A stretch of DNA of 44,206 bases, taken from the NCBI GenBank assembly GCA_024711125.1, contig JANJTM010000080.1, positions 1-44,206 on the forward strand. Direction: 5' to 3'. The position numbers and the translations under genes are program-made. Of the stretch, positions 33,977-44,206 are shown piece by piece. This DNA is from Rhodothermales bacterium. GTDB taxonomy: Bacteria > Bacteroidota > Rhodothermia > Rhodothermales > UBA10348. Every line of letters begins with the position of its first letter. Position 1 is the first letter of the stretch. The notes under the pieces were generated by a model that saw only the letters and a list, made by a program, of their open reading frames with translations, was not told the origin of the DNA and ran no database searches.

Positions 33977-34816
33977 ATGAACAACGCTCTTCGGACGACG
34001 GCCCTCATGGCCGCCCTCATCGTGCTCTTCGCCCTCGTCGGTCGTGCGATCGGCGGCGACGGCGGCATGATCGTGGCTTTCCTGTTCGCCGTGGCCCTGA
34101 ATTTCGGCTCCTACTGGTTCAGCGACCGCATCGTACTCAAGATGTATCGTGCCCGGGAGATCGGGCGCGCGGATGCCCCCGAACTGTATGACATGGTGGA
34201 CCGACTCCGGCAGAACGCCGAGCTGCCCATGCCCCGGCTCTATGTCATCCCGTCGGACCAGCCCAACGCCTTTGCCACCGGCCGGAACCCGGAACACTCG
34301 GCGGTTGCCGTCACGAACGGCATAACCCGCCTGCTCGATCGGACCGAGTTGGAAGGGGTGATCGCGCACGAACTCGCACACATCAAGAACCGCGACATCC
34401 TGACCTCGTCCATCGCCGCGACCGTGGCGGCGGCCATCACGATGATCGCGCGGTTCGGGTTCTTCTTCGGCTCGGATCGCGACCGCGGCGGCGCCGTCGC
34501 ACAGATCGCCATGCTGATCCTTGCCCCCATCGCGGCCATGCTGATCCAGATGGCCATCTCCCGGGCGCGCGAGTTCGCGGCGGACCGGGACGGGGCCGCG
34601 ATCTGCGGCAACCCCCTCGCCCTGGCGAACGCCCTGGCCCGCCTTGAGCGGGGTGCCGAGCGGTCGCCGATGGACTCGGCGAATCCTGCCACGGCGCACA
34701 TGTTCATCGTGAATCCGTTCGCGGGCGGTCTGTCGGGCCTGCGCAGCCTGTTCTCGACCCATCCTCCGACCGAAGCGCGCATCGAGCGTCTGCGCGCGCT
34801 CGCTTCCGGTCGCTGA
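33977..34816 (+). CDS. htpX: HtpX-type membrane zinc metalloprotease (M48)
   Basis: A 279-residue inner-membrane protease involved in quality control of membrane proteins. It has two N-terminal helices (about 7-25 and 30-48), the zinc motif HELAH at 131-135, two more helices (about 145-163 and 175-193) and the third ligand E199 in [11 protein letters not shown]. The C-terminus contains [14 protein letters not shown]. The length is right for HtpX. It stands 131 bp after the CPBP gene, with its own upstream repeats, and 4 bp before a 47-residue membrane protein gene. Confidence 0.94.
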
Positions 34817-40280: not shown

Positions 40281-40421
40281 GGTGTCGGAGAAATGGGGTG
40301 CCGAGGCGTCGGGCTGAAAGTAGGGAGATCGGCGACGGGCCGCACCACGGTCAGCACCCGGACCGTGCTCCGGCGCGCGGCTGCTCGGCCAATGGGCGCC
40401 ACGGACAAACCGCAGTTACTA

Positions 40422-40456
40422 TTGACTTCGTAGATGGGAGGGAGTACTTTTGGTAC
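40422..40456 (+). promoter_or_regulatory. blaI promoter candidate with overlapping inverted repeat
   Basis: TTGACT (40422-40427) and TACTTT (40445-40450) are spaced by exactly 17 bp, a good sigma-70-type promoter about 30 bp before the blaI ATG. The -10 is overlapped by GTAC-N5-GTAC (40444-40456), a candidate operator for BlaI autoregulation; BlaI-family sites are typically short TAC/GTA inverted repeats. The area is AT-rich compared with its surroundings. Confidence 0.5.
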
Positions 40457-40477
40457 GAATGCGCTAGTAGAACAGCC

Positions 40478-40882
40478 ATGCCCGAACAAGCGACCGGACC
40501 CACCTCCCTCGGTGACACCGAACTCGAGATCATGCACGTGGTCTGGGAGATCCACCCGTGTACCGTCGCGCAGGTCCACGCCCGCATCGCGGCCGAACGC
40601 GAGGTGGCCTACACGACCATCATGACGGTGATGGGCAACCTCGCGCGCAAGGGCTACCTGTCGTTCACGAAACGCGGCAAGAAGTACATCTACCGCGCCG
40701 AACGCAGCGCCCGGGAGGTGCGCACCGGCCTGGTGCGCGGCCTGTTGCAGCGGGCATTCGACGATTCGCCGCTCGCGCTCGCCCTGAACCTCGTGCGCGA
40801 AGAGTCCCTGTCGCCGGCCGAACTGGCCGAACTGAAGGAGGCGATCCGTCGCCTCGAAACCGGGGAGGGACGTCATGACTGA
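40478..40882 (+). CDS. blaI: BlaI/MecI-family transcriptional repressor
   Basis: A 134-residue winged-helix repressor. The DNA-binding part (about 8-75) reads LGDTELEIMHVVWEIHPCTVAQVHARIAAEREVAYTTIMTVMGNLARKGYL and FTKRGKKYIYRAE. The C-terminal helices form the dimer. BlaI proteins are inactivated when a paired membrane M56 peptidase senses a signal. Here the M56 gene starts inside the last codons of blaI (8-bp overlap), so the pair is co-translated. There is no beta-lactamase nearby; targets could be this operon and the divergent M1 gene. Confidence 0.93.
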   Translation: MPEQATGPTSLGDTELEIMHVVWEIHPCTVAQVHARIAAEREVAYTTIMTVMGNLARKGYLSFTKRGKKYIYRAERSAREVRTGLVRGLLQRAFDDSPLALALNLVREESLSPAELAELKEAIRRLETGEGRHD

Positions 40883-43800
40883 CCTGCTCGCCGAGCTGTT
40901 TGCCGACTTGGGCCGCCTGGCCTGGGACCCGTTCTGGATGCCGATCACGGCCTGGACCCTGCTGGCAGCCATCGCTCTCGCGGTCATCGCCTTTGTGCCC
41001 GCCCGAGAGGTCTTCCTTCGGCGCGACTTGCACTTCGCGCTCCTGTTGGCGCTGCCGGCGGGCCTCGTGGCGTCGAAAGTCCTGGGCGGAATCCCTGGCG
41101 CGAACCTGCTGCGTACCTGGTGGCAGGGTCCGGCGCTCGTGGCCCCCGTTACTCCGCCCGAAATGACGGTGAGCCCGGTGTTCGAGCAGGACCCCGCGGG
41201 AATCGTTTCGATCGGCGCGCCGGTCCTCGAGCCGTCGATCGATCCGGCCATCTGGATCGGGCTCGGAACCCTTCTCGCGGCCCTCGTGGCTTGTGTGGCC
41301 CTTGTCCTCCTTCTCGTGGCCGTCGTGCGCCTGCGCCGACTGCTCTCCGGGGCCACGCCCGACGGGGAGCTGCGACTCGCCAATGGCCGTGAGGTGAGGA
41401 TTCTGCGTTGCGACCGAGTGCAGGTCCCGTTCTCGTGCGGGGTATTCCGCCCGATGATCGTACTCCCTGACGGGCCGCTGCCCGACCGGGACGTCATCGT
41501 CGCCCATGAGGCGGCCCACCACGAGCATCGAGACGTGGCACGGCTGTGGTCGGCAGGGCTCGTCCACGCGGCGTTCGCCTTCCATCCGCTCGTGCACCTC
41601 CTGTCTTCGAGGCTAACCTGGCTGATGGAGGCCGCCTGCGACCGGGCCACGCTCGAACGCACGGGTCTGCCGGCCTCGCGCTACAGCGAGGTGCTGCTGC
41701 GCGCGGTGCCGCAATCGGCGCCGAGGGCGCTCCGGGTGGCGCTTCCGATGGGTCGCAGCGTCAAGGAACTGCGCTCGCGCATCGTGGCCCTGGGGCATGC
41801 GACGAACCCGGCCCGCCGCGGGCCGGTGGTCTCGATAGGTTCGATGGGGGTCTTCGCGGCCTCGATGCTCCTGGTCGCGGCCGCGGGGATCGCGGCGACC
41901 GAGGCGCCGGCGCTGGCGACTTCTCGCGTGACGGCGTCGGTCGGCGGCGGGGAGGCTGACCTCGTGGCGGTGACGGTGCTGGCCGACGGCCGCTTCCTGC
42001 TCGACGGGGAGGAGACCTCCCTCGGCATCGTGCAGGCCCGACTGCAGGCCGCGGATCCGTCTCGCCTGGTGCTTTCGCTGGACGTGACGGCCGACGCCGA
42101 TGCGGGGGACTATTTCGACATGTTGTCCGTGGCGCGCATCTCGGGGGTTCGATGGTCGCTGGGCGCGGACGGAACGGTTATGCCCCTGGTCCTGGATCCC
42201 GATGATCGGGACGCAGGCTCGGCACAGGACTTCGGCAACGCACCGATAGTCGCTGCCGACTCGACGCGGCTGTTTCTCGACATGGACGCCGAGGGCGCCC
42301 TGCGTGTAGACGGCAGGCCGACGAGCGAGAGCGAGTTGGTGGAACGGTTGGGTGCCGCCGACACGCGGACAGCGCGCGTATCGTTCCGGGTCGACCCGAG
42401 TGCGCCGAGCGCCGTCCTGAAGCGGGTGCTCCAGGTACTTCACGGAACCGGGGCGGCCGTCGTTATGCCGGAAGGGAGCATCCTTCGAATCCAGACCCCC
42501 GGGCCAACGGCGGCGACGGGAGAAGGTCGAATCACGGGAAGAGTGACGGACGGGAAAACGGGTGGGTCGGTTCGCGGGGCCCTGGTCTATGTGAACGAGC
42601 TGCATGCCGCTGTATCCACCCACGCAGACGGCAGCTATTCATTCAGCGGGATTCCGCCCGGAACGTACACGGTCCGGCTCGACCACGAGGGATCGCTCTA
42701 CAACGAGCAGGAAGTCAAGATATCGGGTGATGCGTCAGTTCGTGTCGACTTTCGCACGGAGGGCACACGGGTGTTTCTCGAGGTGTCCGGTGAAGGAGTG
42801 TTGTCGATCGGCGGAATCGGGGTCTCCATGAATGACCTCCCGACCGTCCTGCGGGCTCAGGCCGACGGGGATGCCATTGCGCTCGTGGTATTCTTCAAGG
42901 CGCGCCTTGGACGGGCCGAGGACATGGCCATGCGCTCAGCCATCGAGTCGGCCGTCGGACGGGCGAGCCGGAATCGGTACGCCCTTCGCTGGACGTACGC
43001 CTACGACGCGCTTCCGCGCGACCCGATCGAGATTCGCCAAGGCACCGTACGCGGTCGAGTCACGCGCGCCGACAATGGCGAACCCCTTCTCGGCGCCTCG
43101 ATCTTCGTGGCGGGCACCCGCATTGGAAGCATGAGCGGTCCGAACGGCGAGTACGTCATCCAGGGCGTCCCGGCCGGTAGGCAGGAGGTCGTGGCAAGCT
43201 ATCTCGGGTTCGTCCCGACGGCCCAGCGCGACGTGAATGTCCCGGATGACGGCACCGTGGTGCTGAACTTCGCGCTGAACCCGCAGACGTATCCGGCGGG
43301 CGAGGTGACGGTGACCCCGCCGCCACCCGTGATCGAATTGCCGCCGCCAGCCCTGATTCTTCCGCCGGACCCGGACCTTCTGCCGCCGCAACCAGCCCGC
43401 GTGCCGCAGCCCGGCGTGCCCGTGAACCGCCCCGGAGAGCCGGAGACCTTCGTCATCGTCGAGCAAATGCCCGAGCTGATCGGCGGGCTCGACGAACTTC
43501 GCGGGCGGGTCGTCTATCCCGATCTCGCGCGTCGCGCCGGGATCGAGGGGAGGGTGATCGTGCAGTTCGTGGTGGATACGGACGGAAAGGTCGTCGATCC
43601 TGTGATCGTCCGCGGAATCGGGTCCGGCTGCGACGAGGAAGCCCTGCGCGTCGTGCGTACGGCGACCTTCGAGCCGGGTATGCAGCGCGGCGTGCCGGTG
43701 CGCGTCAAGATGTCGCTGCCGATCGTATTCGATCTTGACGGCGAGAATGCCCCGCCCCCGCCGCCCCGAGAGCCGGGAGTATCCGAGCCCGGACGACCGG

Positions 43801-44206
43801 CGAATCCGCCCGGAGAACCGATCATTCGTGACTTTGCGGGAAATACCACCGAGGTTTTCGTCATCGTCGAACAGATGCCCGAACTGATCGGTGGACTCGA
43901 CGGGCTCCAGGCGAGCATGGTCTATCCCGAAATCGCCGCCAAGGCCGGCGTCCAGGGCCGCGAGATCGTGCAGTTCATCGTCATGCCGGACGGCTCCGTC
44001 TTCGGCGCCAGGGTCGTGCGAGGCATCGGGGCGGGTTGCGACGAAGAGGCCCTGCGCGTCGTGCACACCGCGCGCTTCAATCCCGGAAGGCAGCGGGACG
44101 TGGCCGTGCCGGTGAGGATGTCGCTTCCGATTACGTTCAAACTGGATCAGGACTCCGAGACATTTCAGGTGGTAATCGAGATCCGCGAGGACGGTACTCT
44201 GCTGGT
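40875..44206 (+). CDS. M56 antirepressor-type peptidase fused to ExbD-like, carboxypeptidase-regulatory-like and TonB C-terminal domains (3' end outside window)
   Basis: The frame from the ATG at 40875 is open to the last base: at least 1110 residues. The N-terminus is a BlaR1-like sensor-protease: four helices (about 23-43, 52-71, 126-151, 318-341), PFSCGVFRPMIVLP (185-198), zinc motif HEAAH (211-215) and E252 in EAACD, in a cytoplasmic loop. There is no penicillin-binding domain. The external part holds ExbD-like units at about 362-430, 463-534 and 631-710; carboxypeptidase-regulatory-like domains at about 550-628 and 723-803; a proline-rich linker (815-856); and two TonB C-terminal domains (858-954, 994-1090). 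Residues 1097-1110 (FQVVIEIREDGTLL) look like the first strand of another ExbD-like unit. M56 and TonB domains are known; ExbD-like assignments are by pattern. Confidence 0.85.
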   Translation, partial: MTDLLAELFADLGRLAWDPFWMPITAWTLLAAIALAVIAFVPAREVFLRRDLHFALLLALPAGLVASKVLGGIPGANLLRTWWQGPALVAPVTPPEMTVSPVFEQDPAGIVSIGAPVLEPSIDPAIWIGLGTLLAALVACVALVLLLVAVVRLRRLLSGATPDGELRLANGREVRILRCDRVQVPFSCGVFRPMIVLPDGPLPDRDVIVAHEAAHHEHRDVARLWSAGLVHAAFAFHPLVHLLSSRLTWLMEAACDRATLERTGLPASRYSEVLLRAVPQSAPRALRVALPMGRSVKELRSRIVALGHATNPARRGPVVSIGSMGVFAASMLLVAAAGIAATEAPALATSRVTASVGGGEADLVAVTVLADGRFLLDGEETSLGIVQARLQAADPSRLVLSLDVTADADAGDYFDMLSVARISGVRWSLGADGTVMPLVLDPDDRDAGSAQDFGNAPIVAADSTRLFLDMDAEGALRVDGRPTSESELVERLGAADTRTARVSFRVDPSAPSAVLKRVLQVLHGTGAAVVMPEGSILRIQTPGPTAATGEGRITGRVTDGKTGGSVRGALVYVNELHAAVSTHADGSYSFSGIPPGTYTVRLDHEGSLYNEQEVKISGDASVRVDFRTEGTRVFLEVSGEGVLSIGGIGVSMNDLPTVLRAQADGDAIALVVFFKARLGRAEDMAMRSAIESAVGRASRNRYALRWTYAYDALPRDPIEIRQGTVRGRVTRADNGEPLLGASIFVAGTRIGSMSGPNGEYVIQGVPAGRQEVVASYLGFVPTAQRDVNVPDDGTVVLNFALNPQTYPAGEVTVTPPPPVIELPPPALILPPDPDLLPPQPARVPQPGVPVNRPGEPETFVIVEQMPELIGGLDELRGRVVYPDLARRAGIEGRVIVQFVVDTDGKVVDPVIVRGIGSGCDEEALRVVRTATFEPGMQRGVPVRVKMSLPIVFDLDGENAPPPPPREPGVSEPGRPANPPGEPIIRDFAGNTTEVFVIVEQMPELIGGLDGLQASMVYPEIAAKAGVQGREIVQFIVMPDGSVFGARVVRGIGAGCDEEALRVVHTARFNPGRQRDVAVPVRMSLPITFKLDQDSETFQVVIEIREDGTLL
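43446..44144 (+). repeat. Tandem duplication of a TonB C-terminal domain within the M56 gene
   Basis: Segments 43446-43736 and 43854-44144 encode aligned 97-residue TonB C-terminal domains offset by 408 bp. Blocks such as FVIVEQMPELIGGLD and GCDEEALRVV are identical in protein and close in DNA, with differences mainly at third positions. A proline-rich spacer separates them. This looks like a fairly recent internal duplication. Confidence 0.85.

Follow-up and report, generated by a model that had tools for sequence, protein, structure and literature searches.

An M56 protease joined to ExbD-like, carboxypeptidase-regulatory-like and TonB C-terminal domains beside a BlaI-family repressor in a Rhodothermales bacterium

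What might a BlaR1-type M56 protease sense when its extracytoplasmic part is built from modules related to the Ton system? The question is raised by a gene at the end of the window, i.e., the whole stretch of 44,206 nucleotides analyzed here, which is contig C15 of a 3.79-Mb Rhodothermales genome in 81 contigs. The gene occupies positions 40875-44206 on the plus strand and encodes residues 1-1110 of a protein of 1161 amino acids, the remainder being located on contig C40. From 40875 the frame runs without a stop up to the contig end, and the observation of an earlier note that it passes the end of the window was borne out: C40 shares an exact 141-bp overlap with the end of C15, unique in both pieces, through which the frame carries on in C40 (L009 6188-6481, minus strand) and stops at residue 1161. 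The order along the full-length protein is M56, ExbD, ExbD, CPD (carboxypeptidase-regulatory-like domain), ExbD, CPD/Ton-box, TonB_C (TonB C-terminal domain), TonB_C and ExbD.

The contig break that runs through the gene could suggest that the long frame is an artefact of assembly or of reading frame. Residues 1-1110, however, form a single open frame on a single contig with an even GC3, and in relatives TonB_C is followed by ExbD within one contig. As GC3 amounted to 0.68-0.85 throughout the eight segments tested, a sequencing frameshift, which the earlier note had named as a possible source of the long frame, is not indicated and the frame is taken as real. The artefact reading is largely refuted and scarcely credible.

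The protease, its repressor and the predicted operator

Positions 40478-40882 (plus strand) encode a BlaI/MecI-family repressor of 134 amino acids (Penicillinase_R, Pfam PF03965; 104.5 bits, cut-off 22.6), starting from the ATG at 40478 and overlapping the start of the M56 gene with its 3' end. The M56 (BlaR1) peptidase domain spans residues 150-305 (41322-41789, plus strand; Pfam PF05569, 66.9 bits, cut-off 31), and its motifs are intact, with HEAAH at residues 211-215 (HEXXH) and EAACD at residues 252-256 (downstream acidic ligand). Together with the BlaI/MecI-family repressor in the same operon, these are the features of a BlaR1-type M56 peptidase. The last transmembrane helix, a hydrophobic segment without a lipobox, lies at about residues 323-342 (41841-41900, plus strand). 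Elsewhere in the window, a weak M56-like match (E 0.008) was observed at 34307-34426 inside a 286-aa frame.

As in BlaR1/MecR1 with BlaI/MecI (MEROPS M56), the repressor lies directly upstream of an M56 zinc protease with HEXXH, and the last helix is followed by an extracytoplasmic sensor region. In BlaR1/MecR1 this is a penicillin-binding/class-D sensor, whereas the window protein instead has ExbD, CPD/Ton-box and TonB_C modules. The Pfam scan of residues 1-1110 gave no match to a penicillin-binding/class-D-like sensor domain, which agreed with the earlier claim that a beta-lactam sensor is missing.

The dyad TAC[TG]A-N6-T[AC]GTA occurs in two copies, on either side of the predicted promoter TTGAC...TACTTTTG before the BlaI gene. 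Putative BlaI operator 1 (TACTATTGACTTCGTA, 40417-40432) overlaps the TTGAC (-33/-35) element, and putative operator 2 (TACGAATGCGCTAGTA, 40454-40469), recognized by the dyad pattern, follows a probable -7-like element (TACTTTTG, 40445-40452, plus strand). This element was identified by direct reading and presumably fits the Bacteroidota -7 consensus TAnnTTTG. The two dyads occurred together in 0 of 100 shuffled windows. Mapping of BlaI-type sites over the 3.79-Mb genome, as the earlier note had proposed, gave four dyads against one for a reversed control: the window pair, one before a second BlaI-M56-TonB operon on contig C50, and one on C40 (C40:25796) about 20 bp 5' of a TPR/TlpA-like gene. 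This last gene (L009 1833-4043; G000:C40:25832-28042), with its operator-like dyad upstream, encodes a TPR protein whose C-terminal domain is a TlpA-like thioredoxin. The other dyad site of G038 and of G048 also precedes a TPR gene.

Within the order, the dyad was found before 34 of 35 TonB-class BlaI-M56 operons (the window's own excluded) versus 20 of 87 other operons, and in about 0.1% of shuffled regions. The 800 bp upstream of the M56-ExbD genes of another family, described below, yielded no such dyad. Outside the window genome the pattern alone is not enriched over the reversed control, and the operator claim therefore rests on its position upstream of these operons. The classical BlaI half-site spacing TACA..TGTA was rejected, its one match in the window being unrelated. 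The predicted dyad operator at the promoter is what would be expected of a BlaI regulon, and the proposal that M56, BlaI and operator form a relay is well supported at the sequence level. Relief of BlaI repression without a beta-lactam sensor, which the earlier note had suggested, likewise finds support in the adjacent BlaI, the intact HEXXH and the conserved BlaI-type operator.

Ton-related modules of the tail

The note had described three stacked ExbD-like units ahead of the TonB ends. Such units are present, but four were found rather than three, with unit C degenerate and unit D, which had been missed, following the TonB ends. With a profile of genuine ExbD only, unit A (residues 359-436; 41949-42182) scored 23.8 bits, unit B (residues 460-540; 42252-42494) 20.3 bits and unit D (residues 1096-1161, of which the window holds only the start, 44160-44206; it finishes on C40) 13.6 bits, each with 0 of 1000 shuffles. 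The claimed ExbD similarity held in this way for units A and B. Unit C (residues 628-712; 42756-43010) failed with this profile, 132 of 1000 shuffles scoring equal or higher, and was matched only when other fused units were part of the profile (13.8 bits; 0 of 1000 shuffles). Because it was reached only through these sister units, it is called a degenerate copy. All units are on the plus strand, as are the modules described below.

An AF2 model of unit B, a check of the kind the earlier note had suggested, reached a mean pLDDT of 81 and a pTM of 0.65. In a Foldseek search of the PDB with this model, the top eight matches were all ExbD/TolR periplasmic domains, the best being 8p9r, ExbD bound to TonB. 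A model of the A-B tandem built without relatives was poor (pLDDT 43) and was discarded. Additionally, a profile of seven fused units ranked ExbD first among PDB sequences (E 1.7e-4), and the same profile picked out, in relatives, ExbD genes that stand alone as frames of about 135-190 aa, with E values down to 2e-9. The Pfam ExbD match in the window protein itself reached 19 bits over two stretches, below cut-off. Several lines of evidence indicate that units A, B and D are real ExbD-like domains, the ExbD/TolR periplasmic fold being assigned to B by model and Foldseek and to A and D by profile. They are like the ExbD/TolR periplasmic domain in fold and sequence; however, ExbD/TolR has its own transmembrane helix, whereas the fused units have none and are present as four copies in one protein. 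The Pfam stretches begin only at about profile position 50, and since the ExbD transmembrane helix is absent, the fused units have no proton-carrying aspartate.

CPD1 (residues 551-630; 42525-42764) was matched by Pfam in two stretches and by a local profile at 2e-27, and Pfam CarboxypepD_reg gave two matches above cut-off. CPD2 (residues 722-807; 43038-43295) is of the TonB-dependent-transporter type, as judged from its alignment with transporter N-terminal extensions at up to 45% identity. The Ton-box-like strand AGEVTVT that follows (residues 808-814; 43296-43316) lines up with the transporter motif EMGDVVVTA / L-EVVVT, the alignment at the Ton-box position being LNFALNPQTYPAGEVTVTP against LDFALAPQTVEMGDVVVTA. 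CPD2 with this strand apparently represents the N-terminal extension (CPD and Ton box) of a TonB-dependent transporter. Such a transporter has a plug and barrel, whereas none comes after AGEVTVT in the window protein, and a search of the tail for the transporter plug/beta-barrel gave no plug match.

A proline-rich linker, read from the sequence (43317-43439), precedes TonB_C 1 (residues 862-958; 43458-43748; local profile 1e-45) and TonB_C 2 (residues 998-1095; 43866-44159; Pfam and local profile), which were found as two copies with Pfam PF03544 (140 bits). The linker motif DLLPPQ was considered as a TonB D-box and dropped, as the published D-box is QPISVTMVTPAD. The linker and the TonB_C domains, here in two copies, are shared with the TonB energy transducer; TonB, however, has an N-terminal TonB helix, whereas the window protein lacks it and has the protease as its anchor. 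A TonB of the same genome is located on contig C78. The fusion of M56 with ExbD-like, CPD and TonB_C modules, as read in the earlier note, was confirmed. With CPD2 and its Ton-box-like strand, the tail therefore has copies of three Ton contact surfaces, i.e., the ExbD periplasmic domain, the transporter N-terminal extension with a Ton-box-like strand, and the TonB C-terminal domain.

Relatives and the internal lipobox

Among the 143 M56 proteins collected in the order, the genuine-ExbD profile found ExbD units in eight, after which the E value rose from 0.003 to 0.43. Within the order, they occur only in M56 proteins with TonB_C (8 of 46 versus 0 of 97; p 7e-5). The arrangement in L025 is TonB_C-ExbD-TonB_C, and the eight-module tail of the window protein is unique among the 143. 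A class-wide search with the fused units revealed 20 further M56-ExbD proteins. Nearly all belong to a single other family, and most lack TonB_C, which shows that the complete Ton set is dispensable. Pfam ExbD was above cut-off in all four of the further tails scanned (35.9-61.8 bits). By plain BLAST, the ExbD1 of the window genome matched about 15 of the 20 tails, most over about 125 residues (E to 2e-20), and its ExbD2 matched 17 (E to 4e-9). The periplasmic parts of both subunits are recognizable in about 15 tails, including the C-terminal extension specific to Ton-type ExbD1. ExbD1 and ExbD2 are encoded on a single contig, where about 230 bp separate their coding matches. BlaI adjoins 19 of the 20 further M56-ExbD genes (a count that leaves out the duplicate locus L317), and the remaining one starts at a contig end.

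The search for M56 and ExbD co-occurrence that the earlier note had called for gave at least 28 proteins in the class (eight from the order and 20 from the class-wide search), a lower bound; a phylum-wide survey was non-exhaustive, only three candidates being scored in each genome. At least 28 genomes of the class share the pairing, which makes it a theme of the lineage rather than a lone oddity. One M56-ExbD gene with ExbD units, L336 (G267:C97), has lost its HEXXH stretch, whether by genuine deletion or through faulty assembly. The stacking of ExbD in an M56 protein had been put forward as not previously described, and in the literature searched, which was short of most subscription papers, we found no account of M56-ExbD proteins.

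In many M56 proteins of the class (e.g., L036, L048, L112, L274 and L318), the last helix ends in an internal lipobox (a K/R stretch, a hydrophobic helix and [LVI]x[AG]C), which gives their periplasmic tail the look of a lipoprotein. By direct reading, 26 of the 28 ExbD-bearing M56 proteins have the lipobox cysteine at the end of the last helix, and a lipobox regular expression matched 55 M56 proteins in the order, many without ExbD. No such cysteine is present at the last helix of the window protein. A single ExbD-like domain was also observed in small stand-alone lipoproteins that have no M56 or BlaI beside them (L121 1914-1480, minus strand; L141 1282-1725, plus strand).

What the tail may sense

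It is plausible, though short of probable, that the locus encodes a BlaI/BlaR1-like proteolytic relay in which a Ton-machine sensor replaces the beta-lactam sensor. This sensor would read the Ton state or receptor load. The TonB_C domains could engage the Ton boxes that loaded transporters present, or else the internal EVTVT strand, and the ExbD-like units would pair in the fashion of ExbD and bind the TonB D-box, which ExbD dimers are known to recruit as a strand (PMC10907165). A changed occupancy of the tail, or pull on it, would move the last helix and activate the M56 domain, and the active protease would cut BlaI, so that repression is lifted from the operon itself and from a small number of other genes, such as the TPR/TlpA-like gene on C40. 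Most relatives may, in addition, carry a lipid on the tail, attached at the internal lipobox. The adjacent BlaI, the HEAAH and EAACD motifs, the ExbD units, the Ton-box-like strand of CPD2, the 8p9r match, the order-wide co-occurrence of ExbD and TonB_C, the ExbD1, ExbD2 and Pfam matches and the adjacent BlaI in the other family, and the operator argue for such a sensor. On the other hand, few regulated genes are predicted, and the single one identified is TPR/TlpA-like, neither a Ton nor a transporter gene; unit C is degenerate, and the ExbD units of the other family occur without TonB_C. Nor does kinship in sequence to ExbD and TonB by itself establish a Ton component as the ligand.

The main rival ligand is peptidoglycan, because ExbD periplasmic domains interact with it too, specific peptidoglycan species having been reported to do so (PMC10771500). 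ExbD/TolR-type domains that bind it would let the relay sense the state of the wall, nearer to the ancestral theme of BlaR1, with TonB_C and CPD as extra anchors. The relatives with ExbD units and no TonB_C, and the classical role of BlaI/M56 in responses to wall antibiotics (PMC7593790), are consistent with a wall sensor, but it leaves unexplained why TonB_C, a Ton-box-like transporter extension and ExbD are found together, with strict order-wide co-occurrence. A further argument against it is the likeness of about 15 tails to both ExbD subunits, including the C-terminal extension specific to Ton-type ExbD1. We regard it as unlikely, if a serious contender. The last helix could alternatively act as an internal lipoprotein signal, so that lipidation or cleavage releases a lipoprotein, the ExbD/TonB tail, that modulates the Ton machine, M56 having a separate activity. 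Such a released regulator would suit the lipobox at the periplasmic end of this helix in 26 of 28 proteins and the stand-alone lipoproteins with an ExbD-like domain in G113 and G091; it is decidedly improbable given that the window protein lacks the cysteine and that processing of an internal lipobox was not found documented in the literature searched. It is very unlikely that the tail consists of generic beta-rich adhesion modules with no Ton-related ligand, gathered by domain shuffling. The degenerate unit C and a tail unique in the order point that way, but every module type comes from one machine and the M56-ExbD pairing recurs.

The preferred reading, a Ton-sensing relay, could be extended to an undescribed class of transcriptional sensor, which we consider rather doubtful: an M56 protease with copies of Ton contact surfaces would read motor or transporter engagement directly, and in most members its tail would carry a lipid at the internal lipobox and might be set free. 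Cell-surface signalling (transporter, anti-sigma factor and sigma factor) would be alike in that the Ton system is coupled to transcription by regulated proteolysis; it differs in using sigma and anti-sigma factors, whereas here there are BlaI and M56, with the Ton parts inside an inner-membrane protease.

How bacteria sense the Ton machine at work, beyond sensing its substrates, would become directly testable with a protease that has Ton contact domains beside a repressor and a predicted operator and, if the proposal is true, BlaI/BlaR1 relays would serve ends beyond antibiotic resistance.
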